From the NCBI GenBank assembly GCA_021780075.1, contig JAJXZL010000022.1, forward strand, positions 62,001 through 126,000: a stretch of DNA of 64,000 nt. Direction: 5' to 3'. The stretch's first letter is position 1. Every line of letters begins with the position of its first letter. Both the position numbers and the translations under genes were made by a program. Positions 51,905 to 64,000 of the stretch are shown in pieces. The notes below the pieces were generated by a model. It saw nothing but the letters and a program-made list of their open reading frames with translations, was not told where the DNA came from and searched no databases. The DNA comes from Acidobacteriota bacterium. Its GTDB lineage: Bacteria > Acidobacteriota > Terriglobia > Terriglobales > Acidobacteriaceae.

Positions 51905-52714
51905 ATGTCCACCGCTGCCGTCCTTCGCCTGCAAATCGAGCGCTCGCTGGCCGACCGTTTTCCGGCTGCGCTGTCGCCTGCGCCGAAGACTATCCGCGAG
52001 GTCGCGGCCACGGGCATTCGAGCGGTGGATGAGCTGCTGGTTGGCGGGTTGCCGGTAGGTGCCATCAGCGAACTGACTGGGCCTGAGTCCTCGGGGCGGA
52101 CAAGCCTCGCTCTGGCTTTTGTTGCCAGTCGCATAGCAGAGGGCCGCGTCTGCGCCTGGGTGGATGGGAACGATTGCTTCGATCCGGAATCAGCCGCTGC
52201 CAACGGCGTTTGCCTGAGCCAGCTTCTCTGGGTGCGTTGCCGCAACGTGGAAGCGAAGCCGAAGCAGCGGGAGCAGCGCTGGGCGCGACTTGACCAGGCG
52301 CTGCGTGCAACGGATCTGCTGCTGCAGGCAGGAGGCTTTGCCGCCATCGTTCTGGATCTGGGCGCGACTGCACCAGAACATGGCAACCGCATTCCGGCTG
52401 CAACGTGGTTTCGCTTTCGCCAGGCTGCCGACCGCGCACGAGGCAGCCTGGTTGTACTGGGGCGCGCGGCGTATGCGCAGTCCAGTGCTGCCGTCGCGCT
52501 GGAGTGTTCAGGGCGGCAGGCGAGGTCTGCCGGTGGAACGGTGCTTAGTGGCCTGGAGTATGAGGTCACCCGTCGTCGGGAACGGTTTTCGTCCTTGCCT
52601 CAAGGCATGCGCATGCCGGAGTCACCAACTACAGGTCTTAGTCGTTGGGGTGGAAAGCCGCCGGTCTCTACCTGGACAGCACTGCCGGCATGGGAAGCAG
52701 TGAGGCGCGCGTGA
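51905..52714 (+). CDS. imuA: ImuA, RecA-like protein of the mutasome
   Basis: 269 residues. RecA/SulA-like core: TGIRAVDELLVGGLPVGAISELTGPESSGRTSLALAF. The Walker A reads GPESSGRT where RecA has GPESSGKT, so the key Lys is Arg. The Walker B-like stretch AAIVLDLGA is near residue 150. ImuA partners ImuB and DnaE2 in induced mutagenesis and is a RecA relative. The ribosome site is weak. GTGA overlap with imuB. Confidence 0.9.
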   Translation: MSTAAVLRLQIERSLADRFPAALSPAPKTIREVAATGIRAVDELLVGGLPVGAISELTGPESSGRTSLALAFVASRIAEGRVCAWVDGNDCFDPESAAANGVCLSQLLWVRCRNVEAKPKQREQRWARLDQALRATDLLLQAGGFAAIVLDLGATAPEHGNRIPAATWFRFRQAADRARGSLVVLGRAAYAQSSAAVALECSGRQARSAGGTVLSGLEYEVTRRRERFSSLPQGMRMPESPTTGLSRWGGKPPVSTWTALPAWEAVRRA

Positions 52715-54207
52715 AGAGCGAACTCTATGCATGCGCGCATGCCGCGGAGTTTCCCGCGCAGGCTCTGCTGCGCCTGCGGCCCGACCTTGCGACGCAGCCT
52801 GTCGCTGTACTGGAAGGCCGGGCTCCGGAGGAGACGGCCTGCGCGTTGAACTGGAAGGCTCGACAGCAAGGCACGGCGTATGGAATGACGCGCCTCGATG
52901 CCGAGAGCATTCCAGGGCTGAGGCTGCTCGCGCGATCCGCACAGAGTGAATCGGCAGCCCGCGCGGTCTTCCTCGAGTGTGTCGCACAGTTTTCCCCACG
53001 CATTGAAGAAGCAAGCCGGGGAACGGCCTGTGCCTTTGTGCTGGACATTGATGGAGCGGAGCGGCTCTTCGGTCCGCCTGAGAAGATGGCGCAAAGGCTG
53101 CGTGCGGCACTGGCCGCGGCAGGGTTTCGCACTTCGATTGCAGTAAGCGCAAACTTTCACACTGCGCGGATGAAGGCTGCGCACTCGCGTGGCATCTCGG
53201 TGATTCGCGCGGGTGAAGAAGCAGGCGCGCTGGCGAGCCTTCCCATCAGCGCACTCGTTCTTGACGCTGATCAGGCGGAGACCTTTGCAATCTGGGGTAT
53301 CCGTACGCTGGGCGAGTTGGCTGCATTGCCCGAGGCAGAACTGGTTACCAGGCTTGGCGCTGAAGCGCGTGCGTGGAGCGCGCTGGCGCACGGTCGGGCG
53401 GCGCATCTTTTCCAGCCTGTCGAGCCTGTGCTTGCTCTCGAAGAATTCTGTGAGTTCGAGACGCCGGTCGAGCAGATTGATTCGCTGCTGTTCGTCGCAG
53501 TGCGGATGATCGACTCGCTGGCCGCCCGTGCGAATGGCCGGGCACTGGCGTTGGCCGCACTCACGGCGCGGATGAAGCTTGAAGACGGCAGTTGGCACGA
53601 ACGAATTATTCGGCCCGCTCTGCCATCGGTAGACCGCAGGTTCCTGCTGAAGCTCGTGCACATGGAGATCGGCGCACATCCGCCACAAGCTGCCGTTGTC
53701 TCGCTCTTGCTCCGAGCGGAAGCCGGACAGGCTAGCCAGATGCAGCTTGGCCTGTTTGCACCCGAGATGCCAGAGCCATCGAAGCTCAATGTGACACTGG
53801 CACGGCTCAAAGCAATCGTGGGAGAGGACCGCGTGGGTTCGCCGGCGCTCGATGATACCCATCGCGCAGACAGCTTCCGCATGAAAGGCTTCGTCGCAGG
53901 CAGCAGCGCGGATGCGCTGAACGGGCTGTCTCAGCGTGTGGCACTGCGCCGTGTGCGTCCGCCGGAACCACTGAGTGTTGTGCTACGCGCGGCCAGACCC
54001 ATCGCATTTCGCAACCTTGCTCGGCGCTTCGAGATTACCGAGGCGTATGGTCCATGGCGGACGAGTGGATGCTGGTGGTCGATGGATGCCTGGGATGGCG
54101 AGGAGTGGGACGTGCTGACCACGGAACACGATGGAACGGCGGTAGCTTGCGTATTAACTCACGACCTGCAACGGAACACCTGGAATCTGGAGGCGTTCTA
54201 TGACTGA
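52711..54207 (+). CDS. imuB: ImuB, Y-family polymerase-like mutasome subunit
   Basis: 498 residues. N-terminal YELYACAHAAEFPAQALLRL-type start (SELYACAHAAEFPAQ) and the Y-family palm (FVLDIDGAERLFGPPEKMAQRL) with little-finger domain after residue 220. ImuB usually lacks polymerase activity and tethers DnaE2 to the beta clamp. The catalytic acid triad of Pol IV is not evident here. GTG 52711 overlaps the imuA stop; the frame is open from 52645 but only the overlap start matches the family. Overlaps dnaE2 by 8 bp. Confidence 0.93.
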   Translation: MKSELYACAHAAEFPAQALLRLRPDLATQPVAVLEGRAPEETACALNWKARQQGTAYGMTRLDAESIPGLRLLARSAQSESAARAVFLECVAQFSPRIEEASRGTACAFVLDIDGAERLFGPPEKMAQRLRAALAAAGFRTSIAVSANFHTARMKAAHSRGISVIRAGEEAGALASLPISALVLDADQAETFAIWGIRTLGELAALPEAELVTRLGAEARAWSALAHGRAAHLFQPVEPVLALEEFCEFETPVEQIDSLLFVAVRMIDSLAARANGRALALAALTARMKLEDGSWHERIIRPALPSVDRRFLLKLVHMEIGAHPPQAAVVSLLLRAEAGQASQMQLGLFAPEMPEPSKLNVTLARLKAIVGEDRVGSPALDDTHRADSFRMKGFVAGSSADALNGLSQRVALRRVRPPEPLSVVLRAARPIAFRNLARRFEITEAYGPWRTSGCWWSMDAWDGEEWDVLTTEHDGTAVACVLTHDLQRNTWNLEAFYD

Positions 54208-57200
54208 CCGCCGCTCACAGATGCCCAACATGCGATCGCCAGGTACGCCAGTGTGCCATCCGAACGACGAATACCAACCGCCGATTCTGCAGAGATTCAC
54301 GAGCAATTCGGTTTCTGGCAGCGGCGACTACGTCGAACTGCACGCAACGAGCGCCTTCAGCTTTCTGGCTGGCGCGTCGCAGCCGGAAGCACTCATCGAG
54401 CAGGCAGCAACACTTGGCATGCCAGCAATCGGACTGGCGGACCGCAATGGACTGTATGGCGCTGCACGCTTTCACACTGAGGCGAAGCGGCGCGGCGTCA
54501 AGGCGCACATCGGCGCAGAGATTGCCATTGCATCGTTCGGCAACCGGCTGACACCGCCAGCATGGCTGCCGCATCAGTTCGGAGAGGAGCCTGCGCGCAT
54601 TACCTTACTCTGCGCGTCGCAGACCGGCTATCAGAATCTCTGCCAGCTCATCACGCGCTTCAAGATGCGCGAGACGACCAAGGCTGAAGGTGCAGCCACT
54701 CTGGACGATCTGGAAGAGTTTTCAGCAGGGCTGATCTGCCTGACAGGCGGCGAGGAGGGACCTCTGGCTGCTGCGCTGGCGCGCGGCGGCGAGAGCGAGA
54801 CACACAAGGCCCTCGGCAGGCTCGTTTCGATTTACGGTCGTGGCAACATCTATCTTGAGCTGCAGCGCCATCACGAGCGCGAGGAAGAATGCCGCAACCA
54901 GTCGCTGCTCTCTGCCGCAGCGCAGTTTGGTCTGCCGGTGATTGCCACCAATGGCGTGCGCTACGCCAGCGATAAGGATAGAGAGCTACTTGATTTGTTT
55001 ACTGCGGTTCGTCATCACACCACGCTCGATCGTGCAGGACGTCTGCTTGCAACGAACTCCATGCGGCATCTGCGCACGCCGCGCGAGATGGCCGCTCTCT
55101 TCCGCGATATCCCAGAAGCCATTGCCAACACGCGCATCGTAAGCGATCGGCTCGGTTTCACGCTCGACAAGCTGGGCTACGAATTCCCGCTGTATCCCGT
55201 ATCTCAAGGCGAGACCATGGACAGCTTTCTTGCCAGGCGCGCCGAGGAAGGAGTGCAGAAGCGCTACGGATCGCCAGCCAGGCGGCATCTGCTCACGAAG
55301 GCTCGCACGCAAGTAGCGCATGAGCTTGCCCTGATTGCAAAGCTTGGCTTTGCCGGCTACTTCCTCATCGTCTGGGATCTGATCCGCTTTTGTCAGAGCA
55401 AGAGATTTCTAGTGCAGGGGCGCGGTTCGGCGGCGAACTCCGCCGTCTGTTACGCGCTTGAGATCACGGCCGTCGATCCGGTCGGCATGGAACTGCTCTT
55501 CGAGCGGTTCCTGAGCGAGAACCGCGGCGAGTGGCCCGACATCGACCTTGATCTCGCCTCAGGCGACGAGCGCGAGCAGGTTATCCAGTATCTCTACGAG
55601 CGCTACGGCGCGCTCGGTGCGGCCATGACCGCCAACGTCATCACCTATCGCAGTCGCTCTGCAGCACGCGAGGTGGGCAAGGCGCTGGGCTTTGAAGAGG
55701 AGCAGACTGCACGACTCTCCGGTCTTGTCGGGCACTGGGAGTGGCGCGGCCCCAACGACACGCTGAACCACCACTTTCAGCAAGCAGGCTTCGATATCCG
55801 GCATCCACGCATCGCCCGCTACCTGGATCTTTGCCTTCGCCTCAAGGATCTGCCGCGGCATCTCGGCCAGCACTCCGGTGGCATGGTTATCTGCGCCGGC
55901 CTTCTGAATCGCGTCGTCCCTATCGAGCGCGCATCGATGCCCGGCCGCACTGTGATTCAGTGGGACAAGGAGGACTGCGCCAACATGGGGCTCATCAAGG
56001 TGGACCTGCTCGGCCTGGGCATGATGGCCGTGCTCAAGGACGCGATCGAGATGATTCCGAGCCACTATGGCAAGCAGGTGGATCTGGCTACACTACCCGA
56101 AGATCCTCTTGTCTACGAGACTCTGCGCAAGGCTGATACGGTTGGCATGTTCCAGGTGGAGAGCCGCGCGCAGATGGCGTCGATTCCGCACAACGCGCCT
56201 GTGCGCTTCTACGACCTTGTTGTGCAGGTGGCGATCATTCGTCCCGGCCCGATTGTGGGCAAGATGATGCATCCTTACATGAGGCGCCGCCAGGGCAAGG
56301 AAGAAGTGACATATCCGCATCCTCTGCTGGAGCCGGCGCTGAAACGCACATTGGGTGTGCCGCTCTTTCAGGAGCAACTGCTGCGCATGGCCATGACTGT
56401 GGCCAGCTTCTCCGGCGCCGAGGCCGAGGAGCTTCGCCGTGCGGTCGGAATGCGCCGGTCCATGCAGCGCATGAAAGACCTCGAAGGCCGCCTGCGCGCG
56501 GGCATGACGCGCAACGGCATCGACGCCGAGGCACAGAACAACATCGTGCAGGGCATCAGTTCCTTCGCCATGTATGGTTTTCCAGAGTCGCACGCCGCGA
56601 GCTTCGCGCTCATCGCCTACGCCTCGGCTTATCTCAAAGTGCACTATCTCGCTGCGTTCACCTGCGGTCTGCTCAACAACCAGCCCATGGGCTTCTACTC
56701 GCCCGCCGTGCTCATCAAGGACGCCCAGCGGCACGGCCTGCAGGTGCGTCCGATCGACGTGCAGCGCTCCGGCTGGCCATGCACGCTGGAGCCGGAGGCT
56801 GATGGCTCGTTCTCACTGCGCATCGGCATGAACTATGCAAAGGGGTTGCGGCAATCCTCCGCGGAGGCATTGCTGGAAGCTCGTGCTGTAGCTGGAGCCT
56901 TCAGTTCTGTCGACGAACTGGCTCTACGCGTGCCCGAGATCAGCCGCAAGGAACTGGTTACTCTGGCACGTATCGGTGCGCTCAATGCGCTCGAGCGTGT
57001 CGAGCATCGCCGCGATGCTCTGTGGCAGGTGGAGCAGGCGGGACGGCCCGTGGGTCCGCTGCTGCGCGGTGCTCATTCTGCGTCGGGCTCATCTTTCAAT
57101 CAAGTTCTGCTACGGCAGATGACCACCGATGAACGCCTTGCAGCCGACTTCGCTGGAACCGGTATCACCACTGGCCCGCATCCCATTGCCTACCATCGTG

Positions 57201-57535
57201 CTGCATTGCGCAGTGAAGGAATTCTCTCGGCTGACGATCTTATGCGCTGTGCCGGCAATCGTTCTGTCCGCATCGCCGGCTGCGTCATTGCGCGGCAGCG
57301 GCCGGGTACTGCAAAGGGCTTCGTCTTCCTCTCACTCGAAGACGAAACGGGCATTGCCAATATTATCCTCACACCTGACATGTTTGAACGCGAGCGCATA
57401 GTCATTACACGCTCACGCTGTCTGCTCATCGAAGGACCGGTGCAAAACCAGGACAGCGTCATCCACGTTAAAGCAAGAAAGATCACGCCACTGACCATCA
57501 CGACCGCCGACGTCCGTTCGCATGACTTTCATTGA
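54200..57535 (+). CDS. dnaE2: Error-prone DNA polymerase DnaE2
   Basis: 1111 residues, C-family polymerase of the SOS mutasome. PHP domain at about 45-340 (YVELHATSAFSFLAGASQPEAL; GLADRNGLYG), polymerase core with GRGSAANSAVCYALEITAVDP and the acidic active site in WPDIDLDLASGDEREQVIQYLYERYG, HhH region and a C-terminal OB fold (VRIAGCVIARQRPGTAKGFVFLSLEDETG). Shorter than DnaE1 and without its tau-binding tail, as DnaE2 should be. An extra 40 residues precede the PHP domain. Third gene of the cassette. Confidence 0.96.
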   Translation: MTDRRSQMPNMRSPGTPVCHPNDEYQPPILQRFTSNSVSGSGDYVELHATSAFSFLAGASQPEALIEQAATLGMPAIGLADRNGLYGAARFHTEAKRRGVKAHIGAEIAIASFGNRLTPPAWLPHQFGEEPARITLLCASQTGYQNLCQLITRFKMRETTKAEGAATLDDLEEFSAGLICLTGGEEGPLAAALARGGESETHKALGRLVSIYGRGNIYLELQRHHEREEECRNQSLLSAAAQFGLPVIATNGVRYASDKDRELLDLFTAVRHHTTLDRAGRLLATNSMRHLRTPREMAALFRDIPEAIANTRIVSDRLGFTLDKLGYEFPLYPVSQGETMDSFLARRAEEGVQKRYGSPARRHLLTKARTQVAHELALIAKLGFAGYFLIVWDLIRFCQSKRFLVQGRGSAANSAVCYALEITAVDPVGMELLFERFLSENRGEWPDIDLDLASGDEREQVIQYLYERYGALGAAMTANVITYRSRSAAREVGKALGFEEEQTARLSGLVGHWEWRGPNDTLNHHFQQAGFDIRHPRIARYLDLCLRLKDLPRHLGQHSGGMVICAGLLNRVVPIERASMPGRTVIQWDKEDCANMGLIKVDLLGLGMMAVLKDAIEMIPSHYGKQVDLATLPEDPLVYETLRKADTVGMFQVESRAQMASIPHNAPVRFYDLVVQVAIIRPGPIVGKMMHPYMRRRQGKEEVTYPHPLLEPALKRTLGVPLFQEQLLRMAMTVASFSGAEAEELRRAVGMRRSMQRMKDLEGRLRAGMTRNGIDAEAQNNIVQGISSFAMYGFPESHAASFALIAYASAYLKVHYLAAFTCGLLNNQPMGFYSPAVLIKDAQRHGLQVRPIDVQRSGWPCTLEPEADGSFSLRIGMNYAKGLRQSSAEALLEARAVAGAFSSVDELALRVPEISRKELVTLARIGALNALERVEHRRDALWQVEQAGRPVGPLLRGAHSASGSSFNQVLLRQMTTDERLAADFAGTGITTGPHPIAYHRAALRSEGILSADDLMRCAGNRSVRIAGCVIARQRPGTAKGFVFLSLEDETGIANIILTPDMFERERIVITRSRCLLIEGPVQNQDSVIHVKARKITPLTITTADVRSHDFH

Positions 57536-57826: not shown

Positions 57827-59188
57827 TCACGAGAGTAATTCATACTCGCGCAGCTTTCGGTACAGGTTCCTCTCACTAATTCCGAGCAATTGCGCAGTAT
57901 GGCCGCGGTGTCCTTTGCAGGCTTCCAGAGCTGCAAGAATGTGCGTCCGTTCAGCAGTCTGGAGCGTAGACAACTGTGGGGTGGCTGGCGATGATTCTGA
58001 CTGCTCCGTCGGCTTTGCGTAACATAAAGCAGGAGGCAGATGCTCCGGTAGCACTGTGGAGCCTTCACACAGCACGAGTGCCGCTTCCACCACATGCAAC
58101 AGTTCGCGAACATTGCCTGGCCAGTGATGACGCCGAAGTGCTTCGAGGGCTTGTTCGCTGAGCTGTTTCTTTGAGCCAAACTGCAGGTTGAGTTTTGCAA
58201 CAAAGTGCTGCGCCATAACGTCGATGTCGCCGCTGCGCGCCCGCAACGGCGGAACCTCCACGGTGATTGTGCTCAGTCGGTAGTACAGATCCTCACGGAA
58301 GATACCCTGCTGCACCATGCGAGGGATATCGCGGTTGGTGGCGGCTAATACCCGAACATTAACGTGAATCTCCCGCGTTCCGCCCAAATGTCTGAACGTG
58401 GAGGTATCAAGTACGCGCAGCAAGGTTGTCTGCGTTGTTGGACTGATCTCGCCAATCTCGTCCAAAAAAATGGTTCCGCCATCCGCAACTTCAAAAAGTC
58501 CAGGCTTTGCGTGCTCCGCGCCGGTAAAGGCTCCGCGCTCGTGGCCGAATAGCTCGCTCTGGAGCAGACTCTCCTGTAACGCGGCGCACTCCACCACGAC
58601 AAAAGGTTTAGCACTCCTCGTGCTCCGTGCATGAATAAGCTTTGCGACCCGCTCCTTGCCCACCCCAGTTTCGCCCGAGATGAGAACAGCAGTATCGCGC
58701 GGGGCAATCTTATGAATGATGCTGAGCAGTTGATGAAACTCGGGGCTTTCTCCCACAAATGAGCTTTCGAGATTGGGCGGAGTTAGCGCGCGTTCAAGAA
58801 GGTTTGCCCTCTGCCGCAACGCCCGCCGCTCGAGAGCACGTTGGATGCGGATATCAAGCTCATCCAAAGGACAGGGCTTCACCACGTAGTCAAAGGCTCC
58901 AATGCGAATCGACTCGATGGCGGTATCGATGGAGCCGTGACCCGTAAGCATGATGACCTCGGTCGTCGGCGCATTAGCCGTGATGGTGCGTAGTGCATCG
59001 AGCCCGCCCATGCCAGGTAGCCGCAAGTCGAGGAGCACAATTTCAGGGTCGTCAGCCTTGACGCGCTGGACCGCTTCTTCACCTGACCCAGCGGTTACGA
59101 CCTCGTAGCCGATCCGCTTAAGCTCTTGCGCCATCACATGACGAAACGCTGCATCGTCGTCAACGAGCAGGATGGAGGCTTGGCTCAT
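57827..59188 (-). CDS. NtrC-family sigma-54-dependent response regulator
   Basis: 453 residues. Receiver domain with phospho-site Asp54 (IVLLDLRLPGMGG) and Thr/Lys switch residues; AAA+ domain at about 145-375 with Walker A GETGVGKERVAKLIH, the sigma-54-contacting GAFTGA loop and RVLDTSTFRHLGG; C-terminal Fis-type helix-turn-helix (HTAQLLGISERNLYRKLREYEL). It therefore should activate a -24/-12 promoter, and one exists upstream of the divergent operon at 61213. Its start overlaps the kinase stop by four bases (ATGA). Confidence 0.96.
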   Translation of the reverse strand: MSQASILLVDDDAAFRHVMAQELKRIGYEVVTAGSGEEAVQRVKADDPEIVLLDLRLPGMGGLDALRTITANAPTTEVIMLTGHGSIDTAIESIRIGAFDYVVKPCPLDELDIRIQRALERRALRQRANLLERALTPPNLESSFVGESPEFHQLLSIIHKIAPRDTAVLISGETGVGKERVAKLIHARSTRSAKPFVVVECAALQESLLQSELFGHERGAFTGAEHAKPGLFEVADGGTIFLDEIGEISPTTQTTLLRVLDTSTFRHLGGTREIHVNVRVLAATNRDIPRMVQQGIFREDLYYRLSTITVEVPPLRARSGDIDVMAQHFVAKLNLQFGSKKQLSEQALEALRRHHWPGNVRELLHVVEAALVLCEGSTVLPEHLPPALCYAKPTEQSESSPATPQLSTLQTAERTHILAALEACKGHRGHTAQLLGISERNLYRKLREYELLS

Positions 59189-61056
59189 GGTTCAACCTCC
59201 TGTACAGGCTCGGGTTGGATTGTCGGCAACACCACTTCGAACATCGACCCATTGTCGAGCTTACTCTCCACCACGATGTCGCCACCCCAACTTCGCACAG
59301 CATTCAACGAGAGGAATAAACCCAGTCCGGTTCCCCCGTCACGCATGCTGAAAAAGGGCTCAAATATTTTGTGCAGATTTTCCTGCGCAATTCCGCAACC
59401 CTCGTCGCGTACGCGAATACGAACAACGCCGTTGCTTTCGGCTTCGACAGTAACCCGGCTCCCCGGCTTAGACGCCTGAATTGCGTTGAGCAACAGATTG
59501 ATCAGGATATCCTGCAATTCCGCCTCGCCTGCCCTCACATGCACGCCAGCCGCGAGCGGCTGCACCACAATCTGCACGGAGTGAGCGCGTGCAGTGGGAT
59601 CGACGAGCCGCTGCGCAGATTCAATCGCCTCGCGCACATCGACGATGGCCTCATGGCTACGCTGTCCCCGCGACAGGCGCAGAAATTGTTGCGTAATGCC
59701 CCGGCAGCGCAGCAACTGCTCGCGCGCAATTGCAGCACTCTCGCGGATTCTTTCAGGCTCTGGTTGCGCGCTCTGTTGGGCGGGCGTTTCGCGCAGGATA
59801 CCCTCGATGCAGGTAAGCACTGTGCCCAGTGGAGTATTCAATTCGTGAGAAAACCCGGATGCCAAGACTCCCAGCGAGGCCAGCCGATGCGACTCCGCCA
59901 GCTTTGCTTCTGCCGCGCGCCTCTCTGAGATGTCGCGCCATACCTCGACCACATGCGTCAGGTGACCGCTCGCATCACGGATCGGCGAGACATGAATCTC
60001 CTCCCAGGCCACCTTGCCGTTGCCGCAGCGATGCTCGAAAATGCGCACCTGGTGTATCCCTGTCTGCAGATATTTGAGGGTAGGACAATCCGGCTGCGCG
60101 CAGGCTCCAGTGCAGAGCTGGTAACAGAAGCTTCCAACAACCTGCTCGCGGGCACTTCCGGTTCGTCGCAGAAACGCGTCATTCGCGGCGATGATCCTTC
60201 GCTCTGGATCCAACACAACAATTCCATCGTCGATGCTGTTGATAACGGTTTCCAGCCGCTCTCTCTCGGCACTCACCTCGTTCACCAGCCCGGCCACGGA
60301 GTCGGCCATCATGTTGAACTCCCGGCCCAGCCACGCCAGCGTATCGGAGCCATCCACCTGCGCTCGCCGCTCAAGGTCGCCTTGGGAAACCATGCGCGCT
60401 GTGTTCTCAAGGCGCTGCAGTCTGCGCAGGACAGACACCCGGATCACCACGAAGATTGCGCCAACAATCACAAAGGTCAGTGCTCCGGTGCCCGCGACCA
60501 TCCAGCGCAGGTCCCGCGTCATGCCGGCGCGAACCTCGCCCGCATCGTAATCCAGGATCAGCACTCCGTTGATCGTCTTGTCCGGAGCGTGGCAGCGATG
60601 ACAGTCCTCACGGTTACGGATCGGGACAACAGTCCGAAGAATCGTCCCGCCCCGCGTTTCAATCACGCGGTTCGATGCCCTTCGATCCACTGGATCGCGG
60701 TGACACGCCTGGCAGGTGGGAGAGCTGATCTGAAAGTCGTCCTCATGCTTGAGCGGCGCACTCGAATAGCGTGGCACGCCGTCGCGGTTCAGCAGCACCA
60801 GTTGCTCCACCCGCGCCTGTTTGCCAAATCCCTCGATCATCTGGGCAATCAACGGCCGATCGTTCTTCAGCATCGCGTGTTCAAGAGCTGTCTGAATCAG
60901 TTCGCTCTCGGCAAGCGCATTGATGCGCGCCATTTCGAGCACGCTGTTGAAATGCCGCACGGAATAGAAGTACGCAGCCACGGCGCAGGCCACCACCACC
61001 GCTGCGGTCACACCCAGCGTGAGACCAACCGTCATGCTGGAAAAGCGCAACTTCAT
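59185..61056 (-). CDS. Membrane histidine kinase with two periplasmic CxxCH haem sites
   Basis: 623 residues. Membrane helices at about 9-30 and 186-208 bound a periplasmic domain with CQACH (115-119) and CHRCH (152-156), two c-type haem attachment motifs. HAMP at about 209-262; PAS at 266-378 with a Cys set C311, C315, C319, C324; HisKA with phospho-His404 (FSHELNTPLG); HATPase with N525, DEGCGIA and GGTGLGLFLS. It probably senses redox state or a gas ligand through its haems and phosphorylates the coupled regulator. ATG 61056 is preferred to a GTG at 61092, which has no ribosome site and would put 12 polar residues before the helix. Confidence 0.93.
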   Translation of the reverse strand: MKLRFSSMTVGLTLGVTAAVVVACAVAAYFYSVRHFNSVLEMARINALAESELIQTALEHAMLKNDRPLIAQMIEGFGKQARVEQLVLLNRDGVPRYSSAPLKHEDDFQISSPTCQACHRDPVDRRASNRVIETRGGTILRTVVPIRNREDCHRCHAPDKTINGVLILDYDAGEVRAGMTRDLRWMVAGTGALTFVIVGAIFVVIRVSVLRRLQRLENTARMVSQGDLERRAQVDGSDTLAWLGREFNMMADSVAGLVNEVSAERERLETVINSIDDGIVVLDPERRIIAANDAFLRRTGSAREQVVGSFCYQLCTGACAQPDCPTLKYLQTGIHQVRIFEHRCGNGKVAWEEIHVSPIRDASGHLTHVVEVWRDISERRAAEAKLAESHRLASLGVLASGFSHELNTPLGTVLTCIEGILRETPAQQSAQPEPERIRESAAIAREQLLRCRGITQQFLRLSRGQRSHEAIVDVREAIESAQRLVDPTARAHSVQIVVQPLAAGVHVRAGEAELQDILINLLLNAIQASKPGSRVTVEAESNGVVRIRVRDEGCGIAQENLHKIFEPFFSMRDGGTGLGLFLSLNAVRSWGGDIVVESKLDNGSMFEVVLPTIQPEPVQEVEP

Positions 61057-61114
61057 TGGAAGGTTCCGGTAACTGGTTGCGAATTTTTGCACATGGCCGA
61101 GTTGGCGTCAACGC

Positions 61115-61143
61115 CTGACGAATTGTCAGTTCGATCATGACAA
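61115..61143. promoter_or_regulatory. Candidate enhancer (activator) site
   Basis: CTGACGAATTGTCAG (61115-61129) is a near-palindrome and overlaps a second one, TTGTCA-N9-TGACAA (61123-61143). A further TGACA follows at 61146. Centre about 100-120 bp upstream of the sigma-54 start, the usual place for an NtrC-type enhancer. Confidence 0.5.
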
Positions 61144-61212
61144 AGTGACAGTCGTACGCCAGCATCGCTCTCGCACGAGCTGAAACGAAGAGAGTTAGAA
61201 GCCGTTCAGGAA

Positions 61213-61229
61213 TGGCACGCCGGGTGCTT
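61213..61229 (+). promoter_or_regulatory. Sigma-54 (-24/-12) promoter
   Basis: TGGCACGCCGGGTGCTT: the invariant GG (61214-61215) and GC (61226-61227) are exactly ten bases apart, and the TGGCACG half is a perfect consensus. It lies 31 bases before ATG 61260 of the redox operon, with AAGGAGG in between. Confidence 0.85.
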
Positions 61230-61259
61230 AAACCAGGGCCATAAAGGAGGTATAACGCG

Positions 61260-61580
61260 ATGTACATGCTCTTGATGGGATTGTGCTTCACATTTTTTGG
61301 GCTGGCCGTAACCGCTGTTGCATTTGCGGCATCTACCCGTCCCAACTCGTCCCCTTCAGCGGTTCAGCCCGAACTCCCCGCTCCGAAGGTGTCCCCGGCC
61401 CGCTTCTTCTCCGACCAGGCCGCATCGCCCATTCCGGTTCCGCCTCAGGTACCGATTGAAGTGCTGCTCCAGCAGATAGAGAACCACATCCGCCTTGAAC
61501 AGGCCGCCGCGGAATCCTTCGTCGCGTATCCCACACAGGCGCTGCTGCACAGCAAGACGTCCTCACCGTTTGTGAACTAG
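61260..61580 (+). CDS. Small membrane-anchored protein, function unknown
   Basis: 106 residues. One N-terminal hydrophobic helix (LLMGLCFTFFGLAVTAVAFAA) is either an anchor or a signal peptide; the rest is Pro/Ser/Ala-rich (SPIPVPPQVPIE) with a short amphipathic helix VLLQQIENHIRLEQAAAESFV. Preceded by a perfect AAGGAGG. First gene behind the sigma-54 promoter, 11 bp from the next gene. I do not recognise the family; the position suggests an accessory subunit of the bc-type complex. Confidence 0.78.
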   Translation: MYMLLMGLCFTFFGLAVTAVAFAASTRPNSSPSAVQPELPAPKVSPARFFSDQAASPIPVPPQVPIEVLLQQIENHIRLEQAAAESFVAYPTQALLHSKTSSPFVN

Positions 61581-61591
61581 GGGAGCAACCC

Positions 61592-62071
61592 ATGGAGCAC
61601 GAACTGCTGAAAGGTCTCTCATCCGACGAAGTCGAACAGGTGCTGGCCCTTGGCAAGCGCATGAAGGTACCCAGCGGGGGATCGCTCTTCCGGCTGGGCG
61701 ATTCCGCCGACCGTCTGTTTCTCGTTGAACGCGGACGGATCCGCCTGACATTTCCCATGCTGATCCGCGGTCATGAAGAAGAAGTCTTTATCGAGGAGAA
61801 GTCGCCCGGCCAAACCGTAGGCTGGTCCGCGCTTGTCCCTCCCTACCGCTTCACGCTCTCTGCCACCGCGCCGCTGGAAACAGACGTGATTGCATTGCAG
61901 CGTGAGACGCTGTGCGCGCTTTGCGAGCGTTCGCCGGTTGTCGGCGCTCGAATCGGTTTGAACTTGTCCTTCGTCGTCGCACAGCGTCTGCAACTCGTCC
62001 AGGCAATGTGGATGCGCGAGATTGAGCGGACCGTTGAAATGAAGTCAGCCGTTGCCGCTGAGGCTCGATGA
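61592..62071 (+). CDS. Cyclic-nucleotide-binding-fold protein without DNA-binding domain
   Basis: 159 residues. The whole chain is the Crp/Fnr sensor beta-roll (LLKGLSSDEVEQVLALGKRMKVPSGGSLFRLGDSADRLFLVERGRIRLT; VGWSALVPPYRFTLSATA) and one long helix (RIGLNLSFVVAQRLQLVQAMWM). It stops where the helix-turn-helix would begin. The phosphate-binding cassette is not recognisably complete. Such stand-alone CNB proteins may regulate by protein contact. GGGGAG lies before the ATG. Confidence 0.83.
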   Translation: MEHELLKGLSSDEVEQVLALGKRMKVPSGGSLFRLGDSADRLFLVERGRIRLTFPMLIRGHEEEVFIEEKSPGQTVGWSALVPPYRFTLSATAPLETDVIALQRETLCALCERSPVVGARIGLNLSFVVAQRLQLVQAMWMREIERTVEMKSAVAAEAR

Positions 62072-62187
62072 CTTCAACCGCATCGCGCTAGAGATGGCGT
62101 AGCCTCGTTGATCACCGCGTCAACCAATGAGCCTGTGTTCAAGCGAGCCGCAACATTCCAGGCGGCTGCAGATTTGGAGAGGCAATA

Positions 62188-62673
62188 ATGGCAACCAGTG
62201 ACCCAAGCGCTATAAATCCGGGCGCGCCGACGGCCACGTCCATACCGCGTCGAGGGTTTGTGGAGTTGCTGCTGAGCAGCGGAATTATTGCCACAGCCGC
62301 CGCATTTGTTTACCCCGTTCTTCGCTACTTTGTTCCTCCCAAGACTACCGACGTCGGCGGCGATTCCGTAGTAGCCGGCAAAGTAGGCGAACTGAAGCCG
62401 AACAGCGGCAAGATCTTCCGCTTCGGTAGTCGTCCGGGCCTGCTCATTCTTACTGCGGACGGCGAATATCGTGCGTTGTCCGCAGTCTGTACCCATCTCT
62501 CCTGCACGGTTCAGTTTCGACCTGATCTGCGCGAAGTGTGGTGCGCATGTCACAACGGTGTATATGGCCTTGATGGTCGCAACATATTGGGCCCTCCGCC
62601 GCGCCCATTGGAGTCTTTCGACGTGCAGGTGCGCGGCAATGAGATCTACGTAACCCGCCGGCGGGAGAGCTGA
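62188..62673 (+). CDS. Rieske iron-sulfur protein
   Basis: 161 residues. Twin-arginine membrane anchor [22 protein letters not shown], then the Rieske fold: cluster ligands C101 and H103 in CTHLSC and C119 and H122 in CACHNG, with C106/C121 able to form the stabilising disulfide. Electron carrier of a bc1/b6f-type quinol oxidase. One base separates its stop from cytochrome b. GAGAGG lies before the ATG. Confidence 0.95.
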
Positions 62674-62674
62674 G

Positions 62675-63760
62675 ATGACCGTCGTTCGCAATGTGCGCAA
62701 CTGGTTTTACGAACGCCTTGAGTGGGATGACCTGATCGCGCCATTGCGCAAGAAGACTGTCCCCCTGCATCGCCTCTCTTATTGGTACTTTCTCGGCGGC
62801 ATTACGCTCTTTCTTTTCGTGATTCAGGTTCTCACCGGAATCCTGCTTCTGCTCTACTACCGCCCCGGAGCCAACGAGGCATTTGAGAGCGTGCAGTACA
62901 TCATGACCCAGGTGCAATTCGGCTGGCTGATCCGCTCCATCCATTCCTGGTCGGCCAACCTCATGGTCTTTACCGCCTTCGCGCACATGTTCAGCGTTCT
63001 TTTTCTCAAGGCCTATCGCAAACCGCGAGAGCTGACCTGGATCAGCGGCGTGATCCTCCTGGTTCTTGTCATGGGCTTCGGCTTCAGCGGGTATCTTCTC
63101 CCCTGGAATACGCTTGCATTCTTTGCCACCAAAGTCGGCACCGACATCGCGGGGCAAGTTCCATTCGTCGGCCACGCCATCATGGTCTTTCTTCGCGGAG
63201 GTGAAGAGGTAACAGGCGCCACTCTCACCCGCTTCTTCGGATTTCACGTGGCCGTTCTGCCTGGCCTCGTCACAGTGCTCATCACATTCCATCTGCTTCT
63301 TGTACAGCGCCAGGGAATGAGCGTGCCGCCGCACGTGGAGAAAGATTGGAATGCCAATCCCACAACAAGGCGCGAGCTGAAATTCTTTCCCAACTTCGCT
63401 CTGCGGGAACTAATGGCATGGTACACAGGCCTCGGCGTGCTCGGTGCACTGGCCGCCGTCTTTCCGTGGAACCTAGGCGTCAAGGCCGATCTCTTTGCCT
63501 CTGCTCCGGCGGGAATCAAACCGGAGTGGTACTTCCTCTTCATGTTCCAGACGCTCAAGATGATTCCTTCCAAGGTTTGGTTCATGGACGGCGAAGTCCT
63601 CGGGATCCTCGCTTTTGGGGTCGCCGGAGTGCTCTGGCTGCTTCTCCCTTTTCTGGAGTGCGATCGCCTGGCGCGCTCGAAACAGTGGATCACGGGCATG
63701 TCAGTCTTTGCGCTGGCCTACGTGGTGGCGATGAGTGTGTATGGCTATGTTGCGAAATAA
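62675..63760 (+). CDS. Cytochrome b, one-piece b6/subunit IV type
   Basis: 361 residues, about eight membrane helices. Haem b ligands are expected in [20 protein letters not shown] (first pair) and in [11 protein letters not shown] and ITFHLLLVQ (second pair). PEWY at the quinol-oxidising site is seen as [14 protein letters not shown]. The chain joins the b6-like and subunit IV-like parts with the linker [19 protein letters not shown]. Its last codons overlap the cytochrome c gene by 14 bp. Confidence 0.95.
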
Positions 63761-64000
63761 ATTCCGCAAAGCCGGCATGGCCCGCTATCTCGTTACGCTG
63801 GGCCTGCTCGCACTCGCAGCATCATTCGGCTACGGGCAGGCCAAGAACTCGTGCGTGGACTGCCACTCCGCTCTGCCCGATCCTCTGGGCGTGACGCAGG
63901 AGACATTCAGTCACGATATCCATGCGCAAAAGGGGCTTACCTGCGTCAGTTGCCACGGCGGCGACGCCAGCACCGACGACCCGACGCAGTCCATGAGTCG
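63747..64000 (+). CDS. Multihaem cytochrome c, 3' end outside the window
   Basis: Only the first 84 codons are present. A signal peptide ([22 protein letters not shown], from Met11) is followed by CVDCH at 36-40 and CVSCH at 66-70. The spacing and the phrase [13 protein letters not shown] suggest more haems beyond the edge. It overlaps the end of cytochrome b by 14 bp; an internal ATG at 63777 is an alternative start. Probably the electron-accepting cytochrome of the Rieske-cytochrome b complex. Confidence 0.88.

Follow-up and report, generated by a model that had tools for sequence, protein, structure and literature searches.

Conserved sequence features point to a sigma-54 promoter ahead of a Rieske/cytochrome b operon in Acidobacteriota and to its control by a divergently encoded NtrC-type regulator

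Introduction

Acidobacteriota are abundant soil bacteria. In the stretch of DNA analysed here, a segment of 64,000 nucleotides from an Acidobacteriaceae contig (hereafter the window), genes for a Rieske/cytochrome b (bc) complex follow a short sequence that resembles a -24/-12 element, and a histidine kinase and an NtrC-type regulator are encoded in the opposite direction. The mechanism by which NtrC-type proteins activate sigma-54 promoters is well known, and the locus raises the question of whether this short sequence is such a promoter and whether the neighbouring regulator is its activator.

Results

The 17-mer TGGCACGCCGGGTGCTT at 61213-61229 of the forward strand, read directly from the sequence, has the form TGGCACG-N5-TGCTT, with the GG at 61214-61215 and the GC at 61226-61227 separated by 10 nt. 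It ends 30 nt before the ATG (61260) of the first ORF of the operon, which is preceded by a ribosome-binding site, AAAGGAGGT, at 61243-61251, and the promoter spacing predicts a +1 at 61239. For comparison we used the sigma-54 consensus mrNrYTGGCACG-N4-TTGCWNNw, as quoted in PMC2725144. The GG-N10-GC arrangement and the TGGCAC and TTGC flanks are in place with a sole difference in the core, a G replacing the first T of TTGC (the -12 box reads GTGC), and this G is itself kept in 17 of the 19 syntenic loci described below. An earlier, sequence-only reading of this DNA had described the element as near-consensus with strict GG-N10-GC spacing, and this description holds at the level of the sequence and across the 19 loci.

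Taken by itself, the sequence of the motif is not beyond chance. The window contains seven near-matches with at most two mismatches, compared with 9.4 expected from shuffled sequence. The genome scan for further -24/-12 elements proposed in the sequence-only reading did return 46 occurrences of TGGCACN6TGC, but a reversed control pattern gave 60, and the genome-wide count was dropped as support for the promoter because of this lack of enrichment. For a chance match at the right distance from a start codon the probability is about 6e-4 per locus, and every one of the syntenic loci has the motif.

The operon begins with two genes that we named sml and crp for this analysis. The first (61260-61580, +) encodes a small N-terminally anchored membrane protein of 106 aa that belongs to no known family and is conserved in its C-terminal half; the second (61592-62071, +) encodes a cyclic-nucleotide-binding-fold protein of 159 aa without a helix-turn-helix (HTH). 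They are followed by the Rieske iron-sulphur protein (62188-62673, +), with the ligand motifs CTH...CACH, and by a cytochrome b of the fused b6/subunit-IV type (62675-63760, +), with a PEWY motif; the CxH...CxxH signature, the PEWY motif and the His ligands identify the products as components of a bc complex. A nonahaem cytochrome c of 424 aa with nine CXXCH motifs starts at 63735 (+) and runs through position 64000, so that the operon extends past the window end to about 65009 (L002:9009). No sigma-70-like promoter was found on the + strand of 60950-62300. The 116-nt gap between crp and the Rieske gene has room for a second promoter, and none was found there. A single transcript is proposed to run through all five genes. 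The leader gave no match to an RNA element in Rfam. Since the DNA-binding part of Crp is missing from the crp-fold protein, a role as ligand sensor or complex partner is probable. Proteins of this kind, 153-159 aa long and lacking the HTH, are invariably present in the cassette.

A cytochrome b search yielded 80 loci, nearly all from Acidobacteriota. Among the 40 nearest genomes no regulator orthologue exceeded 44% identity, and several relatives retain cytochrome b without the kinase/regulator pair; the comparison was therefore widened to a broader contig search. Besides the window, 18 loci share this gene order, from the kinase through sml and crp to the remaining genes. Where the contig is long enough, the regulator follows beyond the kinase; in a few loci the contig stops short and the kinase alone is seen. 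All 19 syntenic loci, the window included, have the pattern TGGMAHN6TGC (TGG[CA]A[CTA]N6TGC) in an equivalent position, some 42-52 nt upstream of the start codon. A motif-anchored alignment of 18 non-redundant syntenic loci gives 1.83 bits per column for the core and 0.58 for the flanks, with pairwise identities of 93% and 41%, respectively. The T, G, G and A of the -24 half and the T, G and C of the -12 half are invariant, while conservation of the spacer is intermediate.

When only cytochrome-b loci with enough upstream sequence are counted, the motif accompanies the kinase/regulator pair in 19/19 loci and is absent from 51/51 loci that have no such pair. Many of these loci are contigs of metagenome-assembled genomes (MAGs) and related to each other, so the 19 loci do not represent 19 independent events. 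On the cytochrome-b tree the pair and the motif each change seven times, and all five supported independent contrasts are concordant (sign test p 0.0625, the lowest value possible with five). Because the motif pattern had been derived from the regulated loci, we also applied a generic sigma-54 score that was not. Upstream of the regulated loci it scores on the sense strand in 18/18 cases, compared with 6/18 for the antisense control; the corresponding figures for the unregulated loci are 3/54 and 9/54. Two loci, L121 and L130, retain sml and crp, yet are without kinase, regulator and motif.

Two further observations concern the distribution of the loci. The MAG Candidatus Acidiferrum typicum UBA7541 accounts for three of them (L104, L123 and L136); the sigma-54 cassette is present in two and missing from the third, which may reflect differential regulation of paralogues or mixing within the MAG. 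In the cassette-free loci L092, L128, L129, L133 and L143, the gene before Rieske is often one for a small monohaem-type cytochrome c, in place of sml and crp.

Two palindromes of the type CTGAC-N5-GTCAG lie upstream of the promoter in 19/19 loci, 21-23 bp apart and on one face of the helix, and are probable enhancer sites. The distal site, UAS1 (CTGACGAATTGTCAG, 61115-61129), is a perfect palindrome centred at -117 and conserved at -115 to -119 in the 19 loci; the proximal site, UAS2 (ATGACAAAGTGACAG, 61137-61151), is imperfect, centred at -95 and conserved at -93 to -98. The exact pattern CTGACN5GTCAG occurs once in the 3.88 Mb genome, as UAS1, and the pair of sites likewise occurs only here. 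Such uniqueness would suit an activator that serves this target alone, and the neighbouring regulator would be the protein that binds the palindromes. Between UAS2 and the promoter, alignments of the syntenic loci reveal a conserved purine-rich element (GAAACGAAGAGAGTTAG, with the A-rich GGAGTTAG; 61182-61198, +), which is kept in nearly all of them.

The regulator (57827-59188, -) is a protein of 453 aa with a receiver (REC) domain, an AAA+ domain carrying GAFTGA and a Fis-type HTH. Its matches to PF00072, PF00158 and PF02954 are all above cut-off and assign it to the NtrC type. GAFTGA, D54 and the Walker motifs are invariant in 12 regulator orthologues, and the recognition-helix region is nearly identical among these sequences. 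The sequence-only reading had placed a GAFTGA regulator next to the promoter; the motif is indeed present in this ORF, but the gene adjoining the promoter is the kinase, and the regulator comes second in the divergent pair. The proposed link between regulator and target itself gains support from the co-inheritance and from the conserved palindromes. A single rpoN gene was found in the genome, as had been asked for (C49:23060-23536, E 1.4e-56; a full-length ORF of 537 aa), 39 kb before the window.

The kinase (59185-61056, -) is a membrane protein with a Cache-like periplasmic domain, two CXXCH motifs, a HAMP domain and a PAS domain. Its ORF is open up to a GTG at 61092, which had been taken as the start. 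Most orthologues align only from about residue 10-13, and the ATG at 61056 leaves space for a sigma-70-like promoter at 61111-61083 (-); for these reasons the ATG is probably the start. This possible promoter of the kinase-regulator pair (61083-61111, -) is recognised by its consensus match, TTGACG-N17-AAAAAT with a TG extension, and its -35 box abuts UAS1; the CGTCA(A) part is kept in most loci. Both CXXCH motifs, situated in the periplasmic segment, are found in 17/17 complete kinase sequences. The periplasmic domain scores 26.8 bits against PF21563, a haem sensor family of Geobacter, just below the cut-off of 27, and a sequence profile search with the sensor domain returned weak matches to 3b47 (E 0.0035) and 3b42 (E 0.014). 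The predicted structure of the domain, of modest confidence (pLDDT 66), resembles Cache/PAS-like sensor domains including 3b42. The input of the kinase would most likely be a redox state or a haem ligand.

Discussion

The promoter geometry and its conservation, the rpoN gene, the competence of the activator, the paired palindromes and the strict co-inheritance are all read from the sequences themselves. On this basis we are highly confident that 61213-61229 is a functional sigma-54 promoter of the sml-crp-Rieske-cytochrome b-cytochrome c operon, activated by the divergently encoded NtrC-type regulator.

Three other explanations were weighed. That the match has arisen by chance and a sigma-70 promoter drives the bc operon would agree with the motif being no commoner than background in either window or genome, but the core is conserved against diverged flanks in 19 loci, and the + strand before the operon and into its first genes offers no sigma-70-like promoter. 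This conservation, the co-occurrence with the pair and the generic score together exclude chance in practice. Alternatively, a dimeric transcription factor might recognise the element as a palindromic operator of the form GGCAY-N5-RTGCY. GCA and TGC are complementary in 18-19 of the 19 loci, and L093 has a perfect TGGCA-N7-TGCCA, so that this symmetric core part, considered alone, would allow an operator. The same symmetry is built into the sigma-54 consensus, and conservation of the element as a whole is asymmetric: the left T and G are kept in 19/19 loci, but their right-hand partners are complementary in just 8/19 and 4/19, and the next inner pair in 6/19. The spacing, the distance to the ATG and the GAFTGA regulator all suit sigma-54, and we consider an operator very improbable.

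A true sigma-54 promoter could also be activated by another enhancer-binding protein, with the neighbouring regulator acting elsewhere, and the NtrC-type family has at least 11 members in this genome. This would leave unexplained why motif, palindromes and neighbouring pair come and go together, and the palindrome pair, unique in the genome, lies within the intergenic region that the operon shares with the kinase. There is, in our judgement, little chance that another activator is responsible.

For the preferred reading, activation by the divergently encoded regulator, the following sequence of events can be proposed. The sigma-70 promoter would supply the kinase-regulator pair, and a periplasmic signal, which may be the redox state of the haem, NO or another haem ligand, would be read by the CXXCH-bearing Cache-like domain of the kinase, whereupon D54 of the regulator would be phosphorylated. 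Dimers of the regulator would then occupy the palindromes at -117 and -95, oligomerise and loop to RNA polymerase-sigma-54 waiting at -24/-12, where the GAFTGA loops and ATP would open the promoter for a start near 61239. The inferred parts of the scheme are the binding of the palindromes by this regulator, the identity of the signal, the start site and a transcript that spans the five genes.

The arrangement recalls the NtrB/NtrC-glnAp2 type in its REC-AAA+-Fis regulator with GAFTGA, its -24/-12 element and its two palindromes, spaced by roughly two helical turns and lying near -95 and -117, but differs from it in the Rieske/cytochrome-b target, the haem-binding motifs of the membrane kinase and the enhancers dedicated to a single operon. 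The RpoN regulon of Geobacter sulfurreducens (consensus TTGGCACGGTTTTTGCT; PMC2725144) likewise includes respiratory and electron-transfer genes under sigma-54 control; this organism belongs to a different phylum, and 'rieske', 'bc complex' and 'cytochrome b' do not occur in the main text of that paper. In the Geobacter bc cluster GSU2930-2937, Rieske protein and cytochrome b are also encoded with multihaem cytochromes c, but the portions of PMC2825233 covered here list four of them (2, 5, 10 and 12 haems) in place of one nonahaem protein, and mention no kinase-regulator-sml-crp cassette. The sCache_heme domains of GSU0582 and GSU0935 (PMC12889525, PMC3460858) share with our kinase a periplasmic domain with CXXCH, apparently Cache-like in the kinase, and 3b47 and 3b42 come up in searches by sequence profile and by fold; the kinase differs in having two conserved CXXCH motifs and not one, in its weak similarity and in its NtrB-like output. 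A recent preprint (PMC12889525) describes the related one-haem sCache_heme family as NO-binding in fusions with signalling modules. Our searches of open full texts returned no account of a Rieske/cytochrome-b operon under sigma-54 control in Acidobacteriota, and no description of a target and a sensor input of this kind for the NtrC-sigma-54 module.

A second respiratory cluster of the same genome (L167:4672-16634; G000:C31:230672-242634) encodes a porin-like CXXCH protein, a Rieske protein, a cytochrome b fused to c domains, a DUF302 protein, a Crp-type regulator, two histidine kinases and an NtrC-type regulator 41% identical to that of the window. Four TGGCACN6TGC elements lie inside it within a span of 10 kb (C31:231192, 236136, 237520 and 241067; scan-corrected chance about 0.01), all shortly before ORFs and placed like sigma-54 promoters. 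The cluster at first resembled a paralogous sigma-54 case; it is kept here as a lead, as the element before the porin-like gene was not found before its homologues in relatives. In the window, the translations of three ORFs in a row (51905-57535; 269, 520 and 1111 aa) suggest a mutagenic translesion cassette of the ImuA-ImuB-DnaE2 type.

For one respiratory operon the analysis names a promoter, a regulator, the motif that it would bind and a sensor that is likely to be haem-based, and the comparison shows which Acidobacteriota have a regulated and which an unregulated bc complex. Tentatively, and as a possibility that we hold to be less likely than not, the dihaem Cache kinase, the NtrC-type regulator, the enhancer pair, the sigma-54 promoter, sml and the crp-fold protein might form a transferable cassette whose parts were acquired or lost together on several occasions and which makes the bc complex inducible by a haem ligand or by the redox state of the periplasm, with sml and the crp-fold protein taking part in feedback. 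If this is true, the cassette would turn a bc complex that is cassette-free in other Acidobacteriota into an induced one.
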